Shown here piece by piece: positions 4,066-36,553 of a stretch of 36,857 nt of DNA. Origin of the DNA: Thalassobaculaceae bacterium (GTDB taxonomy: Bacteria; Pseudomonadota; Alphaproteobacteria; Thalassobaculales; Thalassobaculaceae); NCBI GenBank assembly GCA_029212785.1, contig JARGOG010000043.1:1-36857 (forward strand), given 5' to 3'. Each line of letters opens with the position of its first letter. Positions within the stretch are counted from its first letter, which is position 1. A program made the position numbers and the translations under genes. The notes beneath the pieces were generated by a model. That model saw only the letters and a program-made list of their open reading frames with translations, was not told the DNA's origin and searched no databases.

Positions 4066-5139
4066 CTAGGTCGTCACCCGACCGCCCTTGAGGCGGTAGA
4101 CGTAGGAGATGATCTGCGCCACCGCCTGATAGTGCTCTTCGGGGATCTGCTGGTCCAGTTCGACGCCGCCGAACAGGGCCCGGGCCAAGGGCGGGTTCTC
4201 GACAATCGGAATGTCGTTGGCGCCGGCCACCTCGCGGATCCGGAAGGCGACGCTGTCCGCGCCCTTGGCGACGACGGTCGGCGCCGCCATCGTGGACGTG
4301 TCGTATTGCAGGGCCACCGCAAAGTGGGTCGGATTGGTGATGACGACATCGGCCTGAGGCACCGCCGCCATCATGCGCTGGCGGGCCCGGTCGTGGCGGA
4401 TCTGACGCAGGCGCGCCTTGACGTGCGGATCGCCTTCCGACTGCTTGTGTTCGTCGCGGATCTCCTGACGGCTCATCCGCAGCTGCTTTATGTGCTCATA
4501 TTTCTGGTAGACGAAATCGGCGAAGGCGATCACCGCCATGATCGAGGCGACGCCGATGAGCAGGCGCACCAGCAGTGTCTGGATCTCCTCCAGCAGCTGA
4601 CGCACATCCATCTGCACGATGGTCTCCAGCCGGTCGAGTTCCGGCATGACCAGGACCACCGCAACGGTGCCAACGATCAGCATCTTGGCGATGCCCTTGA
4701 GGAACTCGACCAAGGAGCGCAGCGAGAACAATCGCCCGACCCCTTTGATCGGCGAGAGCTTGTCGAGTTTCGGCGTCAGCGGGTCGGTGGTGAACAGAAT
4801 TCCCGACTGTCCCATGCTGGCGGCCAATGCCAGCACCATGAAGACGGCGAAGACCGGCAGCATGGCGATCAGCACCGAGGAGAAGGCGTCGTACAGGATC
4901 AGGCCCGTGTTGCCCTGATCAATCGGGAGAGACTCGCTCTTCTGGATGATGCCGGCGAGCGGACTGTAGACCCGGAGTGCCACAAACGGGCCGGCGATCG
5001 CGACCAGCAGAGTCGCCCCGAGCAGGACGGCGAAGCTGTTCACTTCCTTACTGTTCGGGATCTGACCCTTCTTGCGCGCCTCCGACAGTTTCTTCGGGGT
5101 CGGCTCTTCCGTTTTTTCTGACTGGTCCTGATCCGACAT
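4066..5139 (-). CDS. flhB: FlhB, flagellar export gate switch protein
   Basis: FlhB sits in the inner membrane with FlhA and FliPQR and switches export specificity from rod/hook to filament substrates. The 357-residue protein has the usual charged N-terminus (EKTEEPTPKKLSEARKKGQIPNSKE), hydrophobic segments at about 36-55, 88-110, 150-165 and 190-210, and the cytoplasmic domain with the autocleavage motif NPTH at 269-272 followed by FAVALQYD. Residue pattern and length are typical. It lies 24 bp after fliR and 9 bp before cckA, so co-transcription is likely. A separate copy of the FlhB C-terminal fold is encoded at 7676-8011 (FlhX). Confidence 0.97.
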   Translation of the reverse strand: MSDQDQSEKTEEPTPKKLSEARKKGQIPNSKEVNSFAVLLGATLLVAIAGPFVALRVYSPLAGIIQKSESLPIDQGNTGLILYDAFSSVLIAMLPVFAVFMVLALAASMGQSGILFTTDPLTPKLDKLSPIKGVGRLFSLRSLVEFLKGIAKMLIVGTVAVVLVMPELDRLETIVQMDVRQLLEEIQTLLVRLLIGVASIMAVIAFADFVYQKYEHIKQLRMSRQEIRDEHKQSEGDPHVKARLRQIRHDRARQRMMAAVPQADVVITNPTHFAVALQYDTSTMAAPTVVAKGADSVAFRIREVAGANDIPIVENPPLARALFGGVELDQQIPEEHYQAVAQIISYVYRLKGGRVTT

Positions 5140-7675: not shown

Positions 7676-8011
7676 ATGTCCGGTCGATCCGATACGCCAT
7701 CGAGCCGCCGCGCCGCCGCCCCCGAGCGGCAGATCGCCATCGCGCTCAGCCACGACATCGACGGCGGCACCGCGCCGACGGTGGTGGCGAAGGGCTATGG
7801 CGAACTGGCGGAGAAGATTCTGGATCTCGCCTTCCACAATAATGTGAAGGTCCGTACCGATCCGGATCTCGCGCAGATCCTCGAAGTGGTCGAGGTCGAC
7901 TGCGAGATCCCGCTGGAGGCGTTTGCCGCCGTTGCCGAGATCCTTACCTATGTCTACCGCGCCAATGGCCAGCTCGGGACCGATGGCAGCGATGCGGAGG
8001 AAACCCCATGA
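7676..8011 (+). CDS. flhX: FlhX: free-standing FlhB C-terminal-domain homologue
   Basis: This 111-residue cytoplasmic protein aligns with the end of the FlhB cytoplasmic domain: IALSHDIDGGTAPTVVAKGYGELAEKILDLA against FlhB VALQYDTSTMAAPTVVAKGADSVAFRIREVA, and IPLEAFAAVAEILTYVYRANGQ against IPEEHYQAVAQIISYVYRLKGG. It lacks membrane segments and the NPTH cleavage motif; it begins just after where FlhB is cut. Stand-alone proteins of this type exist in several bacteria and can stand in for the cleaved FlhB C-terminal fragment in export-specificity switching; that role here is inference. There is no Shine-Dalgarno before the ATG, and a TATACT element ends six bases upstream. The next gene overlaps by four bases (ATGA). 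Confidence 0.85.
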   Translation: MSGRSDTPSSRRAAAPERQIAIALSHDIDGGTAPTVVAKGYGELAEKILDLAFHNNVKVRTDPDLAQILEVVEVDCEIPLEAFAAVAEILTYVYRANGQLGTDGSDAEETP

Positions 8012-9498: not shown

Positions 9499-12400
9499 TC
9501 AGTTGGTGGCGCTCAACGGTCCCTGTTTCAGCTTGTCCCGATAGCTCGACAGGAAGGCCTGGAACCGGCCGATTTCCTCGAACCGTTCGGACAGGCGCAG
9601 GAATTCGTCCGGCCCGCTGTCGGTATTGTTGGTGATCAGGCGGAAGGCCTCGCGGAACGGTGTATCGTCCATCTGCGTCCCGTAGATCTGACGCAGGCGG
9701 TTCAGACCGTTGTCGTTATCGCTGAGCGCCAGGGCCACGGCCCAATTGACGATGTAGTTCGCCTGCTCCGACGTCAGACGTCGGCCGTCGCGGCCGGCTT
9801 CACCGACCAGGGTCCGGAAGGTCTTTGCCGCTTCGACCCATTCCTGGGTCCGCCAGTGGATGTCGGCCCGCAACAGGTCCGCCTCGTGGCCCTTGTCGTC
9901 GGCCATCAACTCGAGCGCGCCCTGGGCGTCGCCAAGTTCGAAGATCGCCCGGGCCCTGAGCCGTCGACGCTCGGACGCGAGGGCGGATTGCAGACCGGGG
10001 GCAACACTTTCGTCGAGTGCCGCGATCGCACTCTCGGGCTGGCGGTCGAGCAGCAGGATCAGCGCGAGACGCGCGCCGACCCGCGCTTTTTCCGTGCCCT
10101 GCAGACGGAACTTCACCTGGCGGTCAAGCAGCCGGGAGGCACGGTCGAGCAGGTCGACCTTGACCAGGCGATCGGCCAGCGCCTCGATGATCTTGTCGCC
10201 GGCCGACCCGACCGGGGTCAGTTCGCGGAACTCGTCATACAGCGCCAGAGCCTGCAACGGCGTCATCGACTCGGCGACACCGCTGGTGAAGATATCGCTG
10301 AACGCCTCGGTCAGCTCGTAGGCGAGATCGCGGGACTCCGGATTGTCGGGGAAGAAGGTGACCGCCTGGCGCAATGCCGCAAGCCCCTCCTCGAACTCGT
10401 TCTCCTCGAGCCGCAACCGGCCGAGATCACGCAGCAGCTCGAACTCCACCCGGTCTCCGCGCCAGGCATAGCGCAGCTCGTCGATGCGATCGGCCGCCTG
10501 CTTGGTGGTAATGCGACCGTCATTGAGACGGTACTGGATCAGCTCCCGCTCGGAGCGGACCCGCGCCCAACGGTCCTCGCCTTCGGCCAACCGGTTCCAG
10601 ATATCGAGCGCCGCCTCGACATCGCCGAAGGCATAGAGAACGCGGCCGCGCAGAAAATCGAGCCGAGCCCGCTCGCCCGGTGTGGGGTCGCCTTCCGCAA
10701 TGACGTCGAGGAAGGCTCCGGCGCCGCGGAAGTCGCCGGCCCGGATCGCCGCCTCGGCCGCCTGCATGGCAAGCTCCGTGGTGTAGTTGCGCGGATAGCC
10801 GCCCGGAATCTCGCCGGCCCGCGCGATATGTTCGACGGCCTCATCCCATTTGCCCTGCCCCGCTGTCGCCGCGCCGCGCCAGAGCTCGGCCTCGGAGAAG
10901 CCGTTCAGAGCCGGATCGTCGAGATACTCCTCGGCCTCTGCATCGCGGCCGAGCATGAAGCTGGCCGCCCCTCTCAAGGCTTTGACGTCGGGCCGGTTGG
11001 CCAGATCCTCGTCGGACTGGGCAATGGTCCGCAACAGGCCGATCGCCTCCGCCGCCAGCCCCCGCGCGAAATAGAACTGTGCCAGTTCCAAGCGCGGCCC
11101 GTTGCGCGAGATGCTGGTCGCCTCGGAAATACGCAACTGCAACGCCTGGCGGCGGTCGAGGAAATCCGCAGCGTTTCCGAGCCGCCAGTTCGCCATATCG
11201 AAGATCCGTCCAGGCGGCAGCCCGGCGGTCAGGCCTTCAAATCGGCCGCCGGCATAGACATCGTCCGTCGACCTCGGCGCCGGCCCCGACAGCACCATGC
11301 CTTCGTCCCGGGTGACGGCAATGCCGTCCGGCAGCACCCGGACCGCTAGATCCTGGCGGTTCGGTCGGACAACCACACCCTGCAGCGACGCGAGGATCGA
11401 CATGTCGGGGTATTTGCGGTCGCCGTCGATGCCGCGGGACAGCGGCGTCACCGGAACCAGGAACAGCCCGTCGCCGACCTCCGGGTCGTTGACCACAATC
11501 GGCTCGCCGACGCCTTCGACCGGAATGAAGAGACGCGGACCCTGGGGGCTGACCATCTGGGCATCGACCCGCAGCGGCACATCGGGCCGAGACAGCTGCG
11601 GCTGCAGATCGAGAACCCAGGCCGTCCCGTCGCGCCACACCCGCGGGTTCACGCCTTCGACAACGGGAATCCGGGCGACCGCGCCGGTGGATGCCGGAAC
11701 TTGCTCGGGCCGACCGACGATCTCGTTCTCCAGCCCGGCGAGCTGACTGGTGTCGAATGTCGCGGTCTGATCGAAGCCGACCCAGACATAACCCGCGCGG
11801 GGGAAGACGACGGCGGCAACCTCCTCCTCGAAAGCAAAGCGCAGGGAGATCGCATCGGCATTGTTCAGCCGGGTGATCGCGATCGGTGGCCCTTCGGGGA
11901 TTCCGGCCGATTCCGGCGGGGCCGACGCCAGGCGCGTCGCGTCGTCGAGCACCGACTGGTTGACGTGCTGGGCGCCCTGATCCGTCGCGCGCACATCCGG
12001 CAGATGGGTGACCGCCGCCGTGGGATCCGAACCATGGCTACCGGCCGGCGGCGGTGCTGTCTCGCTGCGGACCTGCTGATGCGGAGTCGACGGCACCGGT
12101 GCCGCGTCGGGCGCGGGCGCGTGCCCCGGGGCCGAGGCATGACCGGCAGCCGGCGCTGCCTCAGAGCCGGTGGCGGCCGGTGCCGGCGTATTGGAATGCG
12201 CCGGCGGTACGTTCGCGGTCGGCGATTGGGCGGCCGGCGGTTGAGGGACCGAGGCCTGAGCCGGAGGTACGACAGCCTGAGGGGTAGCGGGCGGGGGTGT
12301 AGCGGGCGGCGGCGCGGAAGCGGCTGGCGATCCGGCCGGCGGCACCTGGAGGCCGCTGCCATCCCGCAGCACGTCGACGACCACCTTTGGGCCTGAGCGG

Positions 12401-13137
12401 AACGCCTTGATCGAGCGGCCGTCCGGTACTGGAACGGTGACCGTCAGACCACCCTCGGAGGGGGTGCTGACAAATCCGCGCAGTACCTCCGGCAACTGGC
12501 GACGGACCGCAGCATCGTCCAGACGGGCCGGGCTGGAGAACAGAACCCGCGCCGCGCCGGCATCGGGCTCCACCTGGAACTCCACCGGCGTCGGCCAGTC
12601 GAAGACAATTCGGTCATAGTTCGAATGCTGTCCGATACGCACGCCGAGAACCGGTGCGGATGACGGAGCGGCGACCTGCGCCGGCGCTGGTGTGGACTGG
12701 GCCGCTGTCTGGGGAGCTGGTTGAGGCGCCGCGGCCTGTTGCTGGGGCGCCGGTTGCGCCGGCGCGAGCGGAGCCGGCGCAGAGGCCCGGTCCGACAGGT
12801 CGATAACGATCCGATTGCCTTCACGCGTACTGCGCAGTCGATGATTGCCTGTCAGCTCGATCACCGCGCTCCGCCCGTCGCGCCCGATCCGACCACCGGC
12901 GATGAACCGCCCGAGACCGCTGGCGGCGGCGGCCACATCCCCTTCGATCGGCTGGGAAAAGCGGATCACCAGAGAATCGCCGAACCGCTCCGCCGAATAA
13001 TCGACCGATCGCGGCCAGTCGAAGACGAGCCGCTCGGATGTGGGGGTCGACCCGCCGGACACTTGAACCGGTACCGCCCAAGCCGTCCCACACAGCGCCA
13101 TCAGCGCGATGGCGGCCAGAAGGATCGCGCGGTTCAT
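9499..13137 (-). CDS. Giant secreted motor-operon protein: repeated beta modules plus TPR array
   Basis: The 1212-residue product has a signal peptide (residues 1-21, cleavage near AWA-VP), so it is probably periplasmic or outer-membrane associated. Two related modules follow: residues 24-115 with RLVFDWP at 36-42 and 163-257 with RIVFDWP at 176-182, each ending in an (I/V)V(I/V)D(L/V) strand; a third, weaker one spans about 420-515 (ending WVLDLQ). They resemble AMIN-type beta domains. Pro/Ala-rich linkers occupy about 119-160 and 260-420. From about 650 to the end the sequence is helical and TPR-like (ELAQFYFARGLAAEAIGLLRTIA, EGLAALRQAVTFFPDN). It overlaps the upstream MotB-like gene by four bases, implying coupled translation and a motor role. 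Rhizobial MotC is a periplasmic MotB partner of much smaller size; functional analogy is speculation. Confidence 0.8.
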   Translation of the reverse strand: MNRAILLAAIALMALCGTAWAVPVQVSGGSTPTSERLVFDWPRSVDYSAERFGDSLVIRFSQPIEGDVAAAASGLGRFIAGGRIGRDGRSAVIELTGNHRLRSTREGNRIVIDLSDRASAPAPLAPAQPAPQQQAAAPQPAPQTAAQSTPAPAQVAAPSSAPVLGVRIGQHSNYDRIVFDWPTPVEFQVEPDAGAARVLFSSPARLDDAAVRRQLPEVLRGFVSTPSEGGLTVTVPVPDGRSIKAFRSGPKVVVDVLRDGSGLQVPPAGSPAASAPPPATPPPATPQAVVPPAQASVPQPPAAQSPTANVPPAHSNTPAPAATGSEAAPAAGHASAPGHAPAPDAAPVPSTPHQQVRSETAPPPAGSHGSDPTAAVTHLPDVRATDQGAQHVNQSVLDDATRLASAPPESAGIPEGPPIAITRLNNADAISLRFAFEEEVAAVVFPRAGYVWVGFDQTATFDTSQLAGLENEIVGRPEQVPASTGAVARIPVVEGVNPRVWRDGTAWVLDLQPQLSRPDVPLRVDAQMVSPQGPRLFIPVEGVGEPIVVNDPEVGDGLFLVPVTPLSRGIDGDRKYPDMSILASLQGVVVRPNRQDLAVRVLPDGIAVTRDEGMVLSGPAPRSTDDVYAGGRFEGLTAGLPPGRIFDMANWRLGNAADFLDRRQALQLRISEATSISRNGPRLELAQFYFARGLAAEAIGLLRTIAQSDEDLANRPDVKALRGAASFMLGRDAEAEEYLDDPALNGFSEAELWRGAATAGQGKWDEAVEHIARAGEIPGGYPRNYTTELAMQAAEAAIRAGDFRGAGAFLDVIAEGDPTPGERARLDFLRGRVLYAFGDVEAALDIWNRLAEGEDRWARVRSERELIQYRLNDGRITTKQAADRIDELRYAWRGDRVEFELLRDLGRLRLEENEFEEGLAALRQAVTFFPDNPESRDLAYELTEAFSDIFTSGVAESMTPLQALALYDEFRELTPVGSAGDKIIEALADRLVKVDLLDRASRLLDRQVKFRLQGTEKARVGARLALILLLDRQPESAIAALDESVAPGLQSALASERRRLRARAIFELGDAQGALELMADDKGHEADLLRADIHWRTQEWVEAAKTFRTLVGEAGRDGRRLTSEQANYIVNWAVALALSDNDNGLNRLRQIYGTQMDDTPFREAFRLITNNTDSGPDEFLRLSERFEEIGRFQAFLSSYRDKLKQGPLSATN

Positions 13138-13892
13138 GGCGCGCGCTCCGGAAAGATCACGACATCCACGCGCCGCGACAGGGCGTAACGCCGCTCCATA
13201 TCCAATGTCGGCGCGACGGTGGAGAAGCGGCTGTCACCCTGTCCTTCCACCGTCGGCTGGCGCGGGTAGCCGGTTTCAACAAGACGGGTTGCGACCGCAT
13301 CGGCCCGGGCGAGCGACAGTTGCCAGTTCGAGGCGTAGCGGCCGCTGCCGCTCATCGGCTCGGGATCGGCATGGCCGACAACATCGATACGGTTCGGCAG
13401 CGTCGAAAGAGCTGACGACAGGACACCGACGGCGCTCCGGGCATCACGGGTCAGATTCGCCGCCCCGACCGGGAACAGCAGATCCGCCGGAAGCGCGATC
13501 ACCAATAGGTCTCCGGCCCGCGCGATCCTGGCCAACCGCAACACCGGGTCGTTGGCCATCTTGGCTTCGAGCACCGGCTCCAGATACCCGAGCGAAAATC
13601 CGCGGCGCGTGCGTTCTGCCTCGACGTTGAGCGTGACCGGCGGCGCACGCTCGACGACCGAGACCTCCTGACCAAGAACCAGGGCAATGGCGCCCGCCGC
13701 CTTCTCGAAACTCGGAGTGTCCAGCGTTGTCATCGCGAAGCGCAGCACGAAGAACGCCAGCATCAGCGAGACGAGATCGACCAGCGTGACCATCCAACTG
13801 GCGCCGCCGCCGTATTTGCGTCCGGCCCGTCGCCCGAGCTTGCGCTCGCCGCGATGCACCGCCGTTCGAGCGTGGGAGAGATGCACGGTCAT
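13134..13892 (-). CDS. MotB-like stator protein with conserved Asp and OmpA-like domain
   Basis: MotB anchors the stator to peptidoglycan and carries the proton-binding aspartate. The 252-residue protein has one membrane helix (about 34-52) reading WMVTLVDLVSLMLAFFVLRF, with D39 at the MotB aspartate position. Its C-terminal half is an OmpA/MotB peptidoglycan-binding domain: LLFPVGAANLTRDARSAV, then VVGHADPEP, WQLSLARADAVATRLVETGYP, VEGQGDSRF and RRVDVVI. It overlaps its neighbours by four bases on both sides. No motA is in this operon or window, so either MotA is encoded elsewhere or this is a MotB-like accessory. I leave the symbol blank because the pair with the next protein is atypical. 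Confidence 0.85.
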   Translation of the reverse strand: MTVHLSHARTAVHRGERKLGRRAGRKYGGGASWMVTLVDLVSLMLAFFVLRFAMTTLDTPSFEKAAGAIALVLGQEVSVVERAPPVTLNVEAERTRRGFSLGYLEPVLEAKMANDPVLRLARIARAGDLLVIALPADLLFPVGAANLTRDARSAVGVLSSALSTLPNRIDVVGHADPEPMSGSGRYASNWQLSLARADAVATRLVETGYPRQPTVEGQGDSRFSTVAPTLDMERRYALSRRVDVVIFPERAP

Positions 13893-14557
13893 GACGCCCC
13901 TCCCTCCAGGTCGGGGCCCACACGGCCGGCCGGGCGGGTCCGGAAGACCAGCCGCACGAACTCGGGATCGCGTGGTTCCAGGCCGGCGGAGAGGATCGCC
14001 GGATCGACTTCGTGCTCGACGAAGACGCGCACCGTCTCGCTGGCGCGGAAAATCAGCTCCTCGCGCGTCCGGAGGTCGGTATCGCTTCCGATGCCGTAGA
14101 GGATCTGGAGATCGAGAACGCTGCCTGCCGGCGGGTTGTTCAGAATCGGCGCGAGCCGCCCGGCCAATTCCTCCATCACCGGTGTGATTCCACCGGCCGC
14201 CGGCGCGTAGACCCGGCGGCCGGGGATCGACACGAAGATGGGATTGCCGTCGGCCTCGACCTCGACCGCGATCGCGGGCAGGACCTCGCGGAAAACGGTA
14301 CCGAGTGCGGCGCGTACCGACTCGCCGATCACCTTGCCTGGCTCGGCATCCAGAAGATCGTCGGCGATGTCCTTGCGCAAGGCCGAGGGGAAAGCGCGCT
14401 TCACGCTTTCCAGAACCTTATCGCTGCGGCCCTGCTCGACCGTCGACATGGCGTTCAACATGATGAAAAAGGCCAGCAGCAACAGAAACAGACTGAGAAA
14501 CAGCGGCTGGCTGCTGCCCTTATCCTGATCCCGTCGCTCTGAACGGCTGAATGTCAT
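13889..14557 (-). CDS. Second MotB-like protein, lacking the stator aspartate
   Basis: The 222-residue protein has a short charged N-terminus (MTFSRSERRDQDKGSS) and a single membrane helix (about 17-37, PLFLSLFLLLLAFFIMLNAMS). The LLAFFIMLN motif lines up with LMLAFFVLR of the neighbouring MotB-like protein, but the position of the proton-binding Asp is occupied by a hydrophobic or Ser residue. The periplasmic part (about 90-215) looks like a degenerate OmpA-like domain (ELAGRLAPILNNPPAGSVLDLQILYG, RASETVRVFVEHEVD, RLVFRTRP) without the usual HTD. The four-base overlap with the partner gene suggests the two are made together and may pair. It is probably a non-conducting partner or scaffold rather than a working proton channel; that is inference. 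Confidence 0.75.
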   Translation of the reverse strand: MTFSRSERRDQDKGSSQPLFLSLFLLLLAFFIMLNAMSTVEQGRSDKVLESVKRAFPSALRKDIADDLLDAEPGKVIGESVRAALGTVFREVLPAIAVEVEADGNPIFVSIPGRRVYAPAAGGITPVMEELAGRLAPILNNPPAGSVLDLQILYGIGSDTDLRTREELIFRASETVRVFVEHEVDPAILSAGLEPRDPEFVRLVFRTRPAGRVGPDLEGGAS

Positions 14558-14563
14558 CCGCGC

Positions 14564-14989
14564 CTAGTCGATGTTATCGAACAGCGCGTCGACCTCCGCT
14601 TGGCTCGTGGCCGCACCCGGCAGCTGGGGACCGTTGAGCAACCTGCTCTCCGAGGCCGACCCGTCCCCTCTTTTTTCCTCTATTTCCCGCGCTTTGTCAC
14701 GATTTGTTTCGAGCGCGGATGCAGTGGATGAACCGAGCAGCTCCACCGACTCGCGGATCGCACTCAACCGTTGACCGACAATGTCGCGCATGGCGGCGGC
14801 CTCGAAGATCGATCCGGTTGCCGCGGCGATGGCATCTGCCACCGTGCCGCCGGCCGCGTCACCGGTATCCATGAGGGATTCCGCCGCTTCCAGGACCCGG
14901 TCGAACGCGTCCTGCAGCTCGGTATCGGCAGCGGTGATCTCCGACAGGGCGCGCGCTGCCGCGTCGCTGCCCGTGACGCCGGACTTCAC
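14564..14989 (-). CDS. cheZ: Compact CheZ-like CheY-P phosphatase
   Basis: CheZ removes phosphate from CheY-P. The 141-residue protein is shorter than enteric CheZ (about 214), but the central helix IFEAAAMRDIVGQRLSAI contains the catalytic D-x-x-G-Q pattern (D69 and Q73, matching D143/Q147 of E. coli CheZ). The C-terminus LLNGPQLPG...SQAEVDALFDNID resembles the C-terminal CheY-binding tail found in CheZ proteins. The N-terminal two thirds are helical and a flexible charged linker joins the tail. It starts with GTG at 14987-14989, preceded by GGGCGGGA, 22 bp after cheY. The context directly beside cheY supports the call. The family is divergent, so I hold some doubt. Confidence 0.72.
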   Translation of the reverse strand: MKSGVTGSDAAARALSEITAADTELQDAFDRVLEAAESLMDTGDAAGGTVADAIAAATGSIFEAAAMRDIVGQRLSAIRESVELLGSSTASALETNRDKAREIEEKRGDGSASESRLLNGPQLPGAATSQAEVDALFDNID

Positions 14990-15011
14990 CCCATCCCGCC
15001 CGAGCGCATGC

Positions 15012-15398
15012 TCAGAAGTCGCCGATGACCGCAGTCATCTTGGTCTTGAGGGTGGCGGCGTTGAACGGCTTCACGATGTAGTTGTTCACACCGGCTTTCT
15101 TGGCGGCGATGACGTTCTCGGTCTTGCTTTCGGCGGTGACCATGATGAACGGCGTCGACTTCAGCTTGATATCGGTGCGGACTTCCTTGAGGAGCTGAAG
15201 GCCGGTCATCGGCTCCATGTTCCAGTCGGAGATCACAAGGCCGAATTCACCACGTCGCAATTTCTGCAGGGCGGTCGCCCCGTCGGACGCTTCGTCGACA
15301 TTGGCGAAGCCGAGCTGCCGCAGCAGATTTCGGATAATTCTCAACATCGTTTTGTAGTCGTCGACGATGAGAATCGCCATGTTCATGTCAACCGCCAT
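15012..15398 (-). CDS. cheY: CheY-type single-domain response regulator
   Basis: CheY-P binds FliM and alters motor rotation. The 128-residue receiver has the acidic pair D13-D14 (LIVDDYKTM), phospho-acceptor D58 in ISDWNMEPM, T88 in MVTAES and K110 in VKPFN, with no output domain. The start at 15396-15398 is chosen because GAGGAGAC lies about seven bases upstream and the receiver fold begins within a few residues; longer in-frame starts add an Arg-rich extension without support. It is encoded next to a CheZ-like phosphatase and MotB-like proteins and downstream of fliM, so it most likely acts directly on this motor. Confidence 0.93.
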   Translation of the reverse strand: MAVDMNMAILIVDDYKTMLRIIRNLLRQLGFANVDEASDGATALQKLRRGEFGLVISDWNMEPMTGLQLLKEVRTDIKLKSTPFIMVTAESKTENVIAAKKAGVNNYIVKPFNAATLKTKMTAVIGDF

Positions 15399-15475: not shown

Positions 15476-15491
15476 GTTAAAACCTTGTAAA
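15476..15491 (-). promoter_or_regulatory. Candidate CtrA box upstream of cheY
   Basis: On the minus strand the site reads TTTA-N7-TTAAC, one mismatch from the CtrA consensus TTAA-N7-TTAAC, about 80 bp upstream of the cheY ATG. CckA, which controls CtrA phosphorylation, is encoded in the same window. Binding is inference from the motif alone. Confidence 0.35.
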
Positions 15492-15569: not shown

Positions 15570-16481
15570 TCAGTTTATATCGGGCATCGTTCGTCGCTCG
15601 GCAATGCGCGCCGTCACCTCTTTCGCCCGTTCAGCCGTCATCGCCGCGAGCACCGGTGCGGTCTTCGAGGCCTTCATCCGCTCGATCACCTTGAGCAGGA
15701 TTTCCATGTCGAGAGCGTTGAAGATATTGGCCGCGTCCTTCGGCTTCATGGTCTCGTAAATTTTAACCAGCCCGGCGAGTTGGTCTTCTTCCTGCTTGTC
15801 GTATTTCCGGATCAGATCTTCGATCTCCGCCTTGACGCCCTTCAATTCGCCGATCTTCTGATCGATCCGGTGTTCGGCCGCGGCAAGCAGGCCCTCCCGC
15901 TGGACCAACGTGTTCTCCCGCTCCTCCAACTCCCGGCGTCGGTCGGCCAGACTCTGCAGAAGTTCGATCTGCGATTTTCCGAGATTGAACGGATCGACCT
16001 TGTCGTCGGGCGAGGTCGATCCGGCCTGGGCCAGTTGCATCAGCGGGGTCGATGCGGGCTTGGTCCCGATGCCACCGGCGGTCGACACCGACGCGGCGGC
16101 CGTCGCCGGCCGGTCCGGCGATGCGGCAACCGCAACCGACCCGACGCTGAAGGTCTCGACAAGCGTCTCGCGGCGGTCCCACAGGTCGGCGACCTTGAAT
16201 GACAGGACCAGCACCGCGACGAAGGCCGTCAGCGGCAGGACCCGGAACGCCGACAGGCTCTTACGCTTCTTTGCCGGTTTGGCCGGTTTAGCCGGCTCGG
16301 CCGCCTGCCGAGGTTGCTGCTGTGCCGCCCGCATGGCGGCGGCCGCCGCCCGGCCTCTGGCCAGACGCTCGGCATTGGGCGTGGCGGGCCGCGACGAGAC
16401 CGGCGCCTGTGCCTGCGCGGCATCCGCGCCGTCATCCTGCGGGGGCGGAGCGGCTTTTCGTCCTAATCGGTCGTAGCTCAT
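15570..16481 (-). CDS. motE: MotE-like flagellar stator accessory protein
   Basis: MotE proteins are periplasmic partners of the stator in alphaproteobacteria. The 303-residue product has a cytoplasmic Ala/Pro-rich N-terminus, a basic stretch (AKKRKS), one membrane helix (about 79-98, FRVLPLTAFVAVLVLSFKV), a linker, a coiled coil (about 178-235, SLADRRRELEERENTLVQREGLL) and a C-terminal MgtE-N-like domain (LVKIYETMKPKDAANIFNALDMEILLKVIERMKASKTAPVLAAMTAERAKEVTARIAE). Domain order and KPKDAA/MKASK motifs match the MotE family. It lies one base after the DUF6468-type gene, so the two are co-translated. Confidence 0.87.
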   Translation of the reverse strand: MSYDRLGRKAAPPPQDDGADAAQAQAPVSSRPATPNAERLARGRAAAAAMRAAQQQPRQAAEPAKPAKPAKKRKSLSAFRVLPLTAFVAVLVLSFKVADLWDRRETLVETFSVGSVAVAASPDRPATAAASVSTAGGIGTKPASTPLMQLAQAGSTSPDDKVDPFNLGKSQIELLQSLADRRRELEERENTLVQREGLLAAAEHRIDQKIGELKGVKAEIEDLIRKYDKQEEDQLAGLVKIYETMKPKDAANIFNALDMEILLKVIERMKASKTAPVLAAMTAERAKEVTARIAERRTMPDIN

Positions 16482-16482
16482 C

Positions 16483-16959
16483 TCAGCGCACGTTCCTCAA
16501 TGCGTTCATCAGGTCACGCTCGGCCTGGGAGCGTGCTTCACCGTCATTGCCCGCCGCCGCCTCGGGCGGAGCCGGCTGCGGCTGCGCCGGTGGCGCGCGA
16601 CGCGCCGGCCTGCGGGCGGGCGCGGCCTCCGCCGGCTGCGGCTTGCCGCTTGTGGCGTCGGCAATCCGCTCGGCCGTTCCGTCGGCCCGCTCGATCAGGA
16701 ACAGCAACTCGTCCCGCAGGGCTTGCGCCTTGACGATCGGTTCATTGAGCAGGGTCTGGGTCTGCTCGGCCGCCTGGCGAATTCCCTTGAGGCTGGCATC
16801 GGCTTTGGCCGTGGCCTGGCTCATCCGTTCCAGGAAAGTCTCCAGACCTTCCTTCTCGGATCTGAGCATTGCGAGACGCCGATGCAAGACCACGGCATAG
16901 ACGATCGTCGCGAGCAGCAGAATGATCAGGAGGACATCGAGGATCAACGCCACGTTCAT
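16483..16959 (-). CDS. DUF6468-type flagellar-associated membrane protein
   Basis: The 158-residue protein has one N-terminal membrane helix (about 5-25, LILDVLLIILLLATIVYAVVL) followed by a basic flank (HRRLAMLRSEKEGLE), a helical segment (FLERMSQATAKADASLKGIRQAAEQTQTLLNEPIVKAQALRDELLFLIERADGTAERI) and a Pro/Ala-rich tail ending AERDLMNALRNVR. This architecture between fliM and motE matches the uncharacterised DUF6468 family common in alphaproteobacterial flagellar operons; the name is from memory of that family. No biochemical function is known to me. It probably sits in the inner membrane near the stator or C-ring. Confidence 0.75.
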   Translation of the reverse strand: MNVALILDVLLIILLLATIVYAVVLHRRLAMLRSEKEGLETFLERMSQATAKADASLKGIRQAAEQTQTLLNEPIVKAQALRDELLFLIERADGTAERIADATSGKPQPAEAAPARRPARRAPPAQPQPAPPEAAAGNDGEARSQAERDLMNALRNVR

Positions 16960-17039: not shown

Positions 17040-18065
17040 TCACATCTTGCGGAGACGGTTGCTGATCCGCACCGCGATGCTGCCGCCCTTGCGCCCCATC
17101 TTACCATTGAACAGCGAGACATTCCCGCATCGCATGTCGATGGTCGAGTTCGGCATCGCGTTCAGCAGGATCCGGCTGCCCGGCTTCAGGTTGAGCACGT
17201 CGTTCAGCGGCATCACCACCTCGTCGAGCACGGCGTCCAGTTCGACGTCGGTGTTCCACAATTCGTTCGCCAGGTGGGTTTCCCAGATCGAGTCACGGCC
17301 GAACTTCTCGCCCATGAACATCTGCAGCAGCAGCTCGCGCACCGGTTCCAGGGTGGCGTAGGGCAGCATCAGTTCCAGTCGGCCGCCGCGGTCTTCCATG
17401 TCGATGCGCAGCCGCGCGAGCACGGCCGCGTTCGCCGGGCGGGCGATCGTCGCGAAGCGCGGGTTGGTCTCCAGCCGGTCGAAGCGGAAGGTCACCGGGC
17501 TCAGCGGATCGAAGGCGGCGGACAGGTCGCTCAGCACCACGTTGACCATGCGTTCGACGAGGTTGCGCTCGATCGTCGTGTAGGGCCGACCTTCAATACG
17601 CATCGCCGCCGTGCCGCGGCGACCGCCGAGCAGCACGTCGACGATCGAGTAGATCAGCGCGCTGTCCACGACCAGCAGGCCGTAATTGTCCCATTCCTCC
17701 GCCTTGAACACCGACAGCATCGCCGGCAGCGGGATCGAGTTCAGGTAGTCGCCGAAGCGGATGGAGGTGATGTTGTCGAGCGAGACTTCGACGTTGTCCG
17801 AAGTGAAGTTTCGCAGGCTGGTCGACATCATGCGGACGAGGCGGTCGAACACGACCTCGAGCATCGGCAGGCGTTCGTAGGAAACGAGCGCCGAGTTGAC
17901 GATGGCATGAATGCCCGAAGTGTCGCTTTCGCCGCCACCGGCTTCGTCGAAGCCAAGCAGACTGTCGATCTCGTCCTGGTTTAGGACGCGCGCGGAGCCG
18001 ACATCTTCCTCTTCGTCATCTCCCATCGCCTCCCATTCGGCGGCGAGATCGTCATCGGTTGCCAT
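17040..18065 (-). CDS. fliM: FliM, C-ring switch protein
   Basis: FliM is the middle part of the flagellar C-ring; it binds CheY-P and FliG. The 341-residue product contains the CheY-binding peptide LNQDEIDSLLGF (about 28-39), the middle CheC-like domain (LRNFTSDNVEVSLDNITSIRFGDYLNSIP...) and a C-terminal FliN-like SpoA domain (VELDAVLDEVVMPLNDVLNLKPGSRILLNAMPNSTIDMRCGNVSLFNGKMGRKGGSIAVRI). The ATG at 18063-18065 follows GAGG by eight bases; an upstream extension would be Cys/Arg-rich and unrelated to FliM. It follows fliL by 46 bp and precedes the DUF6468-type gene. Confidence 0.97.
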   Translation of the reverse strand: MATDDDLAAEWEAMGDDEEEDVGSARVLNQDEIDSLLGFDEAGGGESDTSGIHAIVNSALVSYERLPMLEVVFDRLVRMMSTSLRNFTSDNVEVSLDNITSIRFGDYLNSIPLPAMLSVFKAEEWDNYGLLVVDSALIYSIVDVLLGGRRGTAAMRIEGRPYTTIERNLVERMVNVVLSDLSAAFDPLSPVTFRFDRLETNPRFATIARPANAAVLARLRIDMEDRGGRLELMLPYATLEPVRELLLQMFMGEKFGRDSIWETHLANELWNTDVELDAVLDEVVMPLNDVLNLKPGSRILLNAMPNSTIDMRCGNVSLFNGKMGRKGGSIAVRISNRLRKM

Positions 18066-18111: not shown

Positions 18112-18648
18112 CTACTGGACCAGCATTTCCTTGAATAGCACGTCCCGCACCCGGACCGGTCGGGCGGCGAGATTGACCCGCCGAAGCAGCTCTTCACGCA
18201 GGCGATACATACCGGCCGACCCGTTCAGGTCGTCGACCCGCAGTTCGCGCAGATAGACCTGGAAGTTGTCGACGATGCGCGGCAGCACCTCGTTGATCCT
18301 GTCGGTGTCCTGCGGACCTTCCAACTCCAGTGCGATCTTGATCTTCAGGAAGGTCGACTTCCGGCCATTGGTGTTCAGGTTCACGATCAGGTCGGGCACC
18401 TCGAAGAAGAAGGCCCGCGTCTCCTGCGGCTGCGGCGGTGGCGCCGGCGCGTGCTCGCCCTCGGCGGCCTCGGCCGGTGGCGGCTCGTGACTGCTGAACA
18501 GGCCAAGCATGACCGCCGCCCCTACGCCGCCGCCGACGAGGACGAGGACGAGAATGGCGGCAAAGATGATCAGCCGCTTGCCGCTGACGCGTTTCTTGTC
18601 CGGCTCATCGCCGGAGGAATCCATTTCGTCGAGGGCTTCTTCAGCCAT
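18112..18648 (-). CDS. fliL: FliL, stator-associated flagellar protein
   Basis: FliL forms rings around stator units and helps torque. The 178-residue protein has an acidic N-terminus, one membrane helix (about 25-45, LIIFAAILVLVLVGGGVGAAVML) and a periplasmic FliL domain (VPDLIVNLNTNGRKSTFLKIKIALELEGPQDTDRINEVLPRIVDNFQVYLRELRVDDLNG...LREELLRRVNLAARPVRVRDVLFKEMLVQ). The ATG at 18646-18648 is chosen because GGGAGA lies upstream; longer in-frame starts lack support. It is the first gene of the long minus-strand motor operon behind a sigma-54-like site at 18779-18794. Confidence 0.96.
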   Translation of the reverse strand: MAEEALDEMDSSGDEPDKKRVSGKRLIIFAAILVLVLVGGGVGAAVMLGLFSSHEPPPAEAAEGEHAPAPPPQPQETRAFFFEVPDLIVNLNTNGRKSTFLKIKIALELEGPQDTDRINEVLPRIVDNFQVYLRELRVDDLNGSAGMYRLREELLRRVNLAARPVRVRDVLFKEMLVQ

Positions 18649-18718
18649 CAGACTCTCCCTCGGGCCGATCTGTCGGGCCCTGGTCTCCGCCGGCTCGAGC
18701 GACAATCGAGCGTATGCC

Positions 18719-18737
18719 GCCGGCACATCCTGCCGGC
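18719..18737. promoter_or_regulatory. Perfect GGCA-N5-TGCC dyad in the fliL/flgF control region
   Basis: GCCGGCA (18719-18725), a five-base spacer and TGCCGGC (18731-18737) form a perfect 7-bp inverted repeat. It is about 40 bp downstream of the predicted fliL start and about 180 bp upstream of the predicted flgF start, distances usable by a sigma-54 activator. The core matches three other dyads in the window. It is a candidate site for an FlbD-type activator. Confidence 0.55.
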
Positions 18738-18778
18738 CCATGACGCGCGATGCGTCGCCGCCGGCCTGTCGATCCCAT

Positions 18779-18794
18779 GCAAGCACGGTGCCGA
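18779..18794 (-). promoter_or_regulatory. Sigma-54-like promoter for the fliL operon
   Basis: On the minus strand the site reads TCGGCACCGTGCTTGC: GG-N10-GC spacing is exact, and the only departures are C for T before GGCAC and C for G after it. The predicted start is near 18768, about 120 nt before the fliL ATG. Confidence 0.65.
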
Positions 18795-36115: not shown

Positions 36116-36553
36116 CTAAGGCGTTTCCAGTGCAATGCTCGGCCGTTCGGTCGTTTCTCCCCGCCCGAAAGCCAGCACCTGATCTTCATACGCGATCAAC
36201 GCTTTACAAGTCTTTAACGCCCGGTAGTAACGAGCCGCGTTCGCGTCCTGCACGATGTGCAGGAGCGTCCGGCGCACCTCGTTGAATGTCGTCGCCTCCA
36301 TGAAATCTTCGACCAATTTCATGAAGGTCGGGTAGTAATCCTGACGGCCCTCGTCGTCGAGGTACATCAAGAGGATCGTGAAATAGATCCGCTTGGCCGG
36401 CGTATCGGCCTCATGCTCCTGCATGATGTCCTTGCCCAGCAGGATCGTCGCCTCGTTCTGCAACACCAGGGACGCACCCTTGTTGCCGGCGACCATGACC
36501 GCGCCGTTGACGACGAACTTTTCCCCAGGCTTGATGTTGACCTTTAGTGGCAT
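36116..36553 (-). CDS. flbT: FlbT, post-transcriptional flagellin regulator
   Basis: In Caulobacter FlbT binds the flagellin mRNA leader and limits its translation until the hook is complete. The 145-residue protein has LKVNIKPGEKFVVNGAVMVAGNKGASLVLQNEATILLGKDIMQEHEADTPAKRIYFTILLMYLDDEGRQDYYPTFMKLVEDFMEATTFNEVRRTLLHIVQDANAARYYRALKTCKALIAYEDQVL, matching FlbT throughout. Length is typical. It is the first gene of the flbT-flaF2-TPR/GT-TPR/GT run. Only AAGG immediately before the ATG could serve as ribosome site, so initiation may be weak. Confidence 0.95.
   Translation of the reverse strand: MPLKVNIKPGEKFVVNGAVMVAGNKGASLVLQNEATILLGKDIMQEHEADTPAKRIYFTILLMYLDDEGRQDYYPTFMKLVEDFMEATTFNEVRRTLLHIVQDANAARYYRALKTCKALIAYEDQVLAFGRGETTERPSIALETP

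Follow-up and report, generated by a model that had tools for sequence, protein, structure and literature searches.

A conserved flagellar gene block of Alphaproteobacteria encodes a probable stator-spoke protein and two MotB-like proteins

A five-gene block lies between motE and fliO-fliP

The DNA examined here, which we call the window, is the 36,857-nucleotide (nt) stretch covering positions 1 to 36,857 of contig JARGOG010000043.1 (assembly GCA_029212785.1), from the 4.9-Mb genome of a Thalassobaculaceae bacterium. Between motE and the opposite-strand genes fliO-fliP it carries a block of five genes, namely cheY, a short cheZ homologue, two genes that we refer to as MotB-like 2 and MotB-like 1, and a gene for a large secreted protein, referred to as the giant protein herein (Table 1). 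A preliminary description of the window had listed these genes as consecutive, with four-base overlaps joining the last three. Both statements held: all five genes lie on the minus strand in this order, MotB-like 2 and MotB-like 1 overlap at 13889-13892, and MotB-like 1 and the giant gene overlap at 13134-13137. The gaps further upstream are 22 nt (cheY-cheZ) and 6 nt (cheZ-MotB-like 2). The closest named relative found was Thalassobaculum litoreum, whose giant protein is 82% identical to that of the window and whose locus L004 carries the entire block.

The tight junctions recur in other genomes. At 45 loci with a readable pair, the MotB-like 2/MotB-like 1 junction fell between -20 and +30 nt in 44 and was exactly -4 in 22, while the MotB-like 1/giant junction fell in the same range in 42 and was exactly -4 in 23; since the in-frame start codon closest to the upstream stop was used, these distances are biased towards small values. 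This recurrence supports the earlier proposal that the MotB-like genes are translationally coupled to the giant gene. Together with the conservation of the proteins and of the gene row in other genomes, it also rules out that the block consists of chance open reading frames (ORFs).

Table 1. Features of the block and of its conserved neighbours in the window
Feature	Position	Strand	Remarks
cheY	15012..15398	-	128 amino acids (aa), single-domain response regulator
cheZ, short homologue of the phosphatase of phosphorylated CheY (CheY-P)	14564..14989	-	141 aa, GTG start
MotB-like 2	13889..14557	-	222 aa; one transmembrane (TM) helix and a degenerate OmpA-fold domain; Ser22 replaces the stator Asp
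MotB-like 1	13134..13892	-	252 aa; TM helix with Asp39 and OmpA-type domain
Giant secreted protein, best read as spoke-type (PflA/MotK/FssB class)	9499..13137	-	1212 aa
AMIN-like domain 1 of giant	12790..13074	-	residues 22-116; structure model, profile comparison
AMIN-like domain 2 of giant	12367..12645	-	residues 165-257; hhalign to domain 1 99.8%
AMIN-like domain 3 of giant	11599..11886	-	residues 418-513; hhalign to domains 1 and 2, 98.2 and 98.5%
Further beta domain of giant	11305..11577	-	residues 521-611; not AMIN-like by profile
TPR-like superhelix of giant	9523..11196	-	residues 648-1205; Pfam, structure model
CtrA-type box TTTA-N7-TTAAC	15476..15491	-	within the 171-nt motE-cheY gap
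motE, E-ring-type protein, conserved neighbour	15570..16481	-	NCBIfam FlbB collar model 9.7e-10, 38.6 bits, under its cut-off of 110
DUF6468 protein	16483..16959	-	DUF6468 2.6e-18
fliM	17040..18065	-	FliM 1.1e-65; start set by length of relatives
fliL	about 18112..18786	-	FliL 7.3e-20; start uncertain

The giant protein combines AMIN-like domains with a TPR superhelix

The giant protein opens with a hydrophobic stretch followed by AWA ahead of the mature domain, which by eye forms a Sec-type signal peptide of 21 residues. The mature protein, modelled from 59 aligned rows (mean predicted local distance difference test, pLDDT, 83.5; model numbering shifted by the 21-residue signal peptide), showed beta domains followed by a TPR-like superhelix, with a low-confidence proline-rich linker between the second and third beta domains. 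By profile comparison the first three beta domains are mutually homologous (98.2-99.8%), and the fourth had no detectable homology to them. Pfam AMIN-like matches were found in all 11 giant family members scanned, with the window protein under the curated cut-off. The preliminary description had called the large protein a periplasmic repeat protein, and these features agree with a secreted TPR protein of the stator-anchoring kind.

A sequence search of the PDB with the giant protein returned mainly generic TPR proteins and PilQ, and a PHROGs search gave nothing informative. The top PDB fold match was chain K of 9hmf, a periplasmic scaffold of the Campylobacter jejuni motor, with an E-value of 3.1e-9 and low TM-scores of 0.18/0.26; from its length, this chain would be PflA. 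Because the TM-scores are low and other TPR superhelices follow, the match supports, without proving, a relation between the giant protein and PflA.

The giant gene tracks motA, and the genes between it and motE vary

To place the block in a wider setting we used a sample of 192 genomes drawn evenly across Alphaproteobacteria. The giant protein was found in 110 of these by profile search, a few weak or partial matches being among the 110. When tallied against strong MotA_N matches, with weak or partial MotA_N matches excluded, 95 genomes had both, 15 the giant alone, 10 MotA alone and 72 neither, so that 95 of the 105 genomes with a strong MotA carry the giant. In a phylum-wide sequence search the giant was present in 17 of 150 genomes, all 17 alphaproteobacterial. 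The spread over the class seen in the sample of 192 rules out a lineage-specific novelty.

We compared 90 neighbourhoods of the better giant matches, of which 72 had motE in view and 18 did not. The common row was fliL-fliM-DUF6468-motE-[cheY-cheZ]-[MotB-like 2-MotB-like 1]-giant, often followed by fliP/fliO on the opposite strand. The row proposed for the window is therefore conserved in other alphaproteobacteria, all four middle genes and the giant being present in 18 of the 72 motE-bearing neighbourhoods. The remainder had none of the four (12), the MotB pair only (12), cheY and cheZ (11), cheY only (6), cheZ and the pair (5), cheZ only (3), cheY and the pair (2) or an odd arrangement (3). 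The giant gene stands directly after motE in 12 of the 72, and in most others only cheY, cheZ or MotB-like genes intervene, as do four in the window; other ORFs intervene in four neighbourhoods, and motE is inverted in one. In Erythrobacter and Sphingobium a relative follows fliL-fliM-DUF6468-motE across a gap, and on Azospirillum chromids a shorter TPR relative lies directly upstream of motA-motB (L113 9257-13595, L114 9278-13580). At one locus from a metagenome-assembled genome (L011 5220-12480) several block genes are interrupted by frame breaks, perhaps a sequencing error rather than decay.

The preliminary description had proposed that CheY-P turnover and stator anchoring are made together as one motor-control module. 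As an obligatory module this was not borne out: the MotB pair occurs without CheZ in 14 of the 72 neighbourhoods and CheZ without the pair in another 14, and no significant association was found between the two (Fisher p = 0.15, with three loci carrying a single MotB-like gene left out). The conserved operon divides into separable modules, which are the switch signal, the MotB pair and the spoke.

One of the two MotB-like proteins lacks the stator aspartate

MotB-like 1 matches the Pfam families OmpA (4.8e-11, over the cut-off) and MotB_plug (4.4e-10), and MotB-like 2 matches MotB_plug with 25.3 bits. In 48 aligned MotB-like 1 rows, from which broken, partial and over-long genes were left out, W33 and D39 are invariant, and D39 falls at the position of MotB D32. 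Pfam OmpA matches 38 of these 48 members; the motif Arg is kept in 44 and the motif Asp in only 30. In MotB-like 2, all 41 aligned rows have Ser, Gly or Ala at the stator Asp position, and Pfam OmpA matches a single member. The two proteins are homologous, a profile-profile alignment setting S22 against D39, and the structure model of MotB-like 2 contains a TM helix and an OmpA-type domain whose fold matches MotB/OmpA periplasmic domains, those of PA0833 and MotB being the closest. In a tree the MotB-like 2 rows formed one group (100/99) and 16 canonical MotB rows another (100/100), and this separation of the canonical rows rules out a recent duplication of canonical MotB as the origin of the pair.

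For the survey of MotB-like 2, presence was scored at a threshold of 70 bits, set between the two kinds of match; MotB-like 1 genes reach 63 bits or less. Of the 192 genomes, 51 had MotB-like 2, and each of these also had the giant (probability by chance 6e-16, kinship ignored). Both MotB-like genes stood together at 48 of the 53 loci with either. In a phylum search 4 of 249 genomes, all alphaproteobacterial, gave matches above 180 bits; matches in 28 genomes of other classes reached at most 76 bits and, being not far above 63 bits, were taken as ordinary MotB relatives. Where the pair and the giant gene were on different contigs, we rejected the view that they are always truly apart, as the block reaches the contig end in three genomes (L141-L143).

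No MotA-type ORF was found in the block by Pfam scan or neighbourhood comparison, and the single canonical motA-motB pair of the window's own genome lies on a different contig (G000 C63). Exactly one strong MotA was present in 45 of the 51 genomes with MotB-like 2, two were present in one genome and none in five. Three of these five, which have no MotA_N match, keep a weak MotA_ExbB candidate; in the drafts of G038 and G174, which may be incomplete, the only MotA_ExbB matches were judged ExbB-type by score. The pair therefore consists of B-type proteins that have no dedicated A partner and whose genes nearly always stand beside the spoke gene. MotB-type genes at other places, in genomes that carry the giant (L118-L120, L124) or lack it (L123, L125), were considered and set aside as not belonging to the block. 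Two of these loci, L120 5462-6945 and L124 5741-7246, lie away from the flagellar block; each has a short MotB-type gene (218-222 aa) beside a divergent MotA-like gene, probably a different ion-channel pair.

CheY and CheZ probably form an ordinary switch pair behind a CtrA-type box

The cheY product matches Pfam Response_reg (5.8e-29) and the NCBIfam CheY model at 159 bits, under the cut-off of 189, and in its sequence the acidic pair, the phospho-Asp, the Thr and the Lys are all in place. The window CheZ-like protein scores 16.1 bits against Pfam CheZ, under the gathering score of 30.7, while 39 of 43 members of its family match at E <= 0.01. A profile of these relatives matched E. coli CheZ (1kmi) at 5.9e-13, and the alignment covers both the catalytic Asp/Gln motif and the C-terminal stretch that binds CheY. 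The catalytic residues of E. coli CheZ are D143 and Q147, and D69, G72 and Q73 of the window protein are kept in 43 of 43 rows, four longer relatives being left unaligned. Judged by the sequences of its relatives, the protein is a CheZ. A second, full-length CheZ (254 aa) is encoded elsewhere in the genome (G000 contig C129 15554-16114; locus L138, 7354-8118). In three genomes (L121 14463-15551, L122 2627-3745, L145 3954-5036) cheZ is directly followed, within the block, by a gene of 360-372 aa that includes a CheY-type receiver part.

The preliminary description had placed the block next to fliL-fliM-motE, and these genes do lie upstream on the same strand; the refinement is that motE and cheY stand 171 nt apart, with a CtrA-type box in the gap. 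For the pattern TTWA-N7-TTAAC the window has two sites, where 0.00 would be expected. With the last C dropped, two sites were found against 0.05 expected, a count reached by 1 of 100 shuffles. The box before cheY is kept in all four aligned sequences, those of the window and of three near relatives. At 22 of 45 loci TTWA-N7-TTAA was found no more than 300 nt upstream of cheY, versus 0.16 in base-shuffled regions. Upstream of the other genes the counts were 0/81 for motE, 4/80 for fliL (0.86 expected), 5/46 for cheZ (0.26), 4/49 for MotB-like 2 (0.24), 1/52 for MotB-like 1 (0.24) and 5/103 for the giant (0.80). In this survey gene starts are approximate, the shuffles preserve nothing beyond base content, and several of the loci are closely related. 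TTAA-N7-TTAA is given as the full CtrA site in the accessible part of PMC6180460.

A consensus scan of the motE-cheY gap for promoters and terminators was uninformative. Because the gap with its box parts motE from cheY, the five genes probably form a transcription unit of their own, of which the box, going by its sequence and position, is a probable promoter element; the cheY-to-giant unit is thus probably CtrA-controlled. The second CtrA-type box of the window, TTTA-N7-TTAAC, lies at 36203-36218 on the plus strand.

Two further genes of the window deserve mention. By its position the DUF6468 gene may be the counterpart of the PflI gene of the Cereibacter operon, whose order is taken from PMC10954123. 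A 111-residue ORF at 7676-8011 on the plus strand resembles, by eye, the C-terminal part of FlhB; it looks like a stand-alone paralogue of the FlhB C-terminal domain, flhB itself being at 4066-5139.

The block probably encodes a stator spoke and a MotB-type membrane partner

The architecture of the giant protein and its place after motE match the PflA/MotK/FssB class of stator spokes, so the core of the block is known biology, and the reading we prefer for the giant protein is that of an alphaproteobacterial member of this class, exceeding MotK in size. On balance, the block probably encodes peripheral parts of the flagellar motor, with this spoke joined by a heterodimeric MotB-type membrane partner and with CheY-CheZ as a separate switch pair. 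We favour this reading because of the giant protein's architecture, the C. jejuni fold match, the tracking of MotA, the Azospirillum relatives upstream of motA-motB, the presence of the giant in every genome with MotB-like 2 and the paralysis of mutants of the class. A heterodimer is suggested by a pair of genes that are adjacent, often overlap by four bases and are homologous, with the Asp in only one of the two in the aligned rows.

In the mechanism we envisage, the giant protein would be secreted to the periplasm, where its TPR superhelix would extend outward from the MotE (E-ring) collar and its AMIN-like domains would dock on peptidoglycan, holding the stators in place and activating them. 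MotB-like 1 and MotB-like 2, translated together with the spoke, would heterodimerise in the inner membrane. The former would contribute a MotB-type TM helix together with an OmpA domain that binds peptidoglycan, and the latter another TM helix, which lacks the aspartate, with a degenerate head of OmpA fold. This heterodimer could serve as a membrane anchor or stator-side partner of the spoke, tying spoke and stators to the wall. CheY and CheZ would be a normal switch-signal pair, on a common promoter and outside the spoke. The periplasmic assembly, the heterodimer, its contact with the spoke and each functional step are put forward here as a proposal.

Several observations weigh against this reading. 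The low TM-scores of the 9hmf match are followed by generic TPR proteins within two orders of magnitude, and the giant protein was matched to CC_2058 and MotK by architecture, gene place and published descriptions, not by direct sequence comparison. One locus left out of the alignment, L054, has the Asp in both MotB-like genes. MotB-like 1 is not strictly one group: the tree, whose bootstrap had not stabilised, requires two changes for it, and one long-branched row stands apart. In 59 of the 110 giant-bearing genomes there was no MotB-like 2 match at 70 bits, and the pair is therefore not needed for the spoke in general. G062 (L140) and G104 (L139) have the pair on another contig with no giant beside it though the sequence continues, and in G114 MotB-like 2 points in the opposite direction.

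The main rival is that MotB-like 1 and MotB-like 2 are the B pair of a stator, a MotA5-B1-B2 complex with one aspartate acting as an alternative or low-conductance stator that competes with MotA5-MotB2. We regard this as a live, if distinctly less probable, alternative. The W-x5-D spacing and FF pair of the MotB TM helix are present in all 48 rows of MotB-like 1, the LAFF core of MotB-like 2 is largely conserved (36 to 40 of 41 rows per position), and the single strong MotA in most MotB-like 2 genomes could be shared. The TM Asp, hard to account for without an ion path, favours ion conduction. A normal stator is disfavoured by the missing motA neighbour and by the Asp that MotB-like 2 has lost. 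No motA stands beside the pair in the window, though stator B genes normally follow A genes (PMC12505986, accessible part), the genome carries canonical motA-motB elsewhere, and the pair-bearing G038 and G174 have no MotA_N match, even allowing for incomplete drafts. More specifically, and slightly more tentatively still, an asymmetric one-aspartate B dimer could share the single MotA and dock on a dedicated spoke, forming a second, possibly one-stroke or brake-type, stator class. The scope of such a class would be about a quarter of the sampled alphaproteobacterial genomes (51/192). At the level of sequence the data do not decide between the anchor and the asymmetric stator with MotA.

It is unlikely that the pair instead regulates canonical MotB, with MotB-like 2 or MotB-like 1 dimerising with MotB and limiting ion flow or stator number like a plug or brake. 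Both proteins do have a plug-type segment (MotB_plug in 48 of 48 MotB-like 1 and 36 of 41 MotB-like 2 members), but the genes stay paired and often overlap, which better fits a mutual partnership. We think it improbable that CheY and CheZ belong functionally to a spoke or stator module linking CheY-P to stator engagement. They share the probable transcription unit, and all four middle genes co-occur in a quarter of the motE-bearing neighbourhoods, but beyond that shared unit no tie to the spoke was found, and CheZ and the MotB pair are not significantly associated. The fliM gene of the cluster also encodes an N-terminal stretch resembling the CheY-binding motif, so that normal switching is explanation enough, and we regard CheY-CheZ as an ordinary switch module whose presence varies independently. 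Least probable of all is that the giant protein is an envelope TPR protein, such as a PilQ- or amidase-type cell-wall factor, merely located in a flagellar cluster: AMIN domains also occur in PilQ and AmiC and its TPR part is like that of many unrelated TPR proteins, but it co-occurs strongly with MotA, has motE in view in 72 of 90 neighbourhoods, and mutants of its class are described as paralysed in two organisms, Caulobacter and Cereibacter.

How periplasmic scaffolds hold and activate stators is an open question outside Campylobacter. If the pair is a spoke-tied heterodimer, it would be a stator-side part missed by a survey that, in its accessible text, inferred the B subunit from proximity to motA (PMC12505986). 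Should the pair bind MotA, it would offer a test of whether one aspartate is enough for a rotary stator to work.

Comparison with known systems

The published systems are described here from the accessible parts of the articles cited. MotK of Cereibacter sphaeroides is a secreted protein with AMIN and TPR regions that is required for rotation, binds MotE and MotB2, and depends on MotA2/MotB2 for its localisation (PMC10954123). Like MotK, the giant protein is secreted, with N-terminal AMIN-like structure, a TPR region and a gene in a fliL-motE operon. MotK has 652 aa and one AMIN-like domain, whereas the giant has 1212 aa, three AMIN-like domains and another beta domain; motA2 lies between motE and motK in Cereibacter, whereas cheY-cheZ and the MotB pair lie between motE and the giant here. 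In Caulobacter crescentus, mutants of fssB (CC_2058) are flagellated and non-motile (PMC7885107), and FssB shares with the giant protein a Sec signal, a TPR domain and a gene adjoining motE (CC_2059) (PMC7885107, PMC13023049). CC_2059 and CC_2058 are adjacent, with no MotB-like pair or CheY-CheZ between them, and the likeness is one of description rather than of sequence comparison.

Structural similarity led a 2026 review and a 2025 preprint to group CC_2058 and MotK with PflA, and likewise to place MotE alongside the E-ring protein FlgY/FlbB (PMC13023049, PMC11870540). PflA of C. jejuni is a spoke with 16-17 TPRs that scaffolds the stators and meets the E-ring, and resembles the giant protein, structurally only, in having an N-terminal beta-sandwich/AMIN domain, a linker and TPRs (PMC12222027, PMC11870540). 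It differs in having one AMIN domain and, as partner, the TPR rim protein PflB, with no MotB-like pair named in these accounts. MotB-like 1 has the TM helix with Asp, plug segment and OmpA-type head of MotB/PomB, and MotB-like 2 has the same fold; in contrast to MotB/PomB genes, the two B-type genes of the window have no adjacent motA and stand in tandem, the product of one lacking the Asp in every aligned row. The window CheZ has the catalytic DxxGQ motif and C-terminal CheY-binding helix of E. coli CheZ, yet is only 141 aa long and accompanied by the 254-aa CheZ. In Azorhizobium caulinodans cheY-cheZ likewise lie beside motB-motC and other flagellar genes (PMC8639532), which also speaks against a special tie of CheY-CheZ to the spoke.

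The preliminary description knew of no described system with this set of genes. For the motE-spoke core that does not stand, given MotE-MotK, CC_2059-CC_2058 (fssB) and the cheY-cheZ genes by motB-motC. For the MotB pair it stands, since we found no description of it in the accessible, open-licence literature searched. The pair is thus apparently a new part, placed beside a motE-spoke core that is already known.

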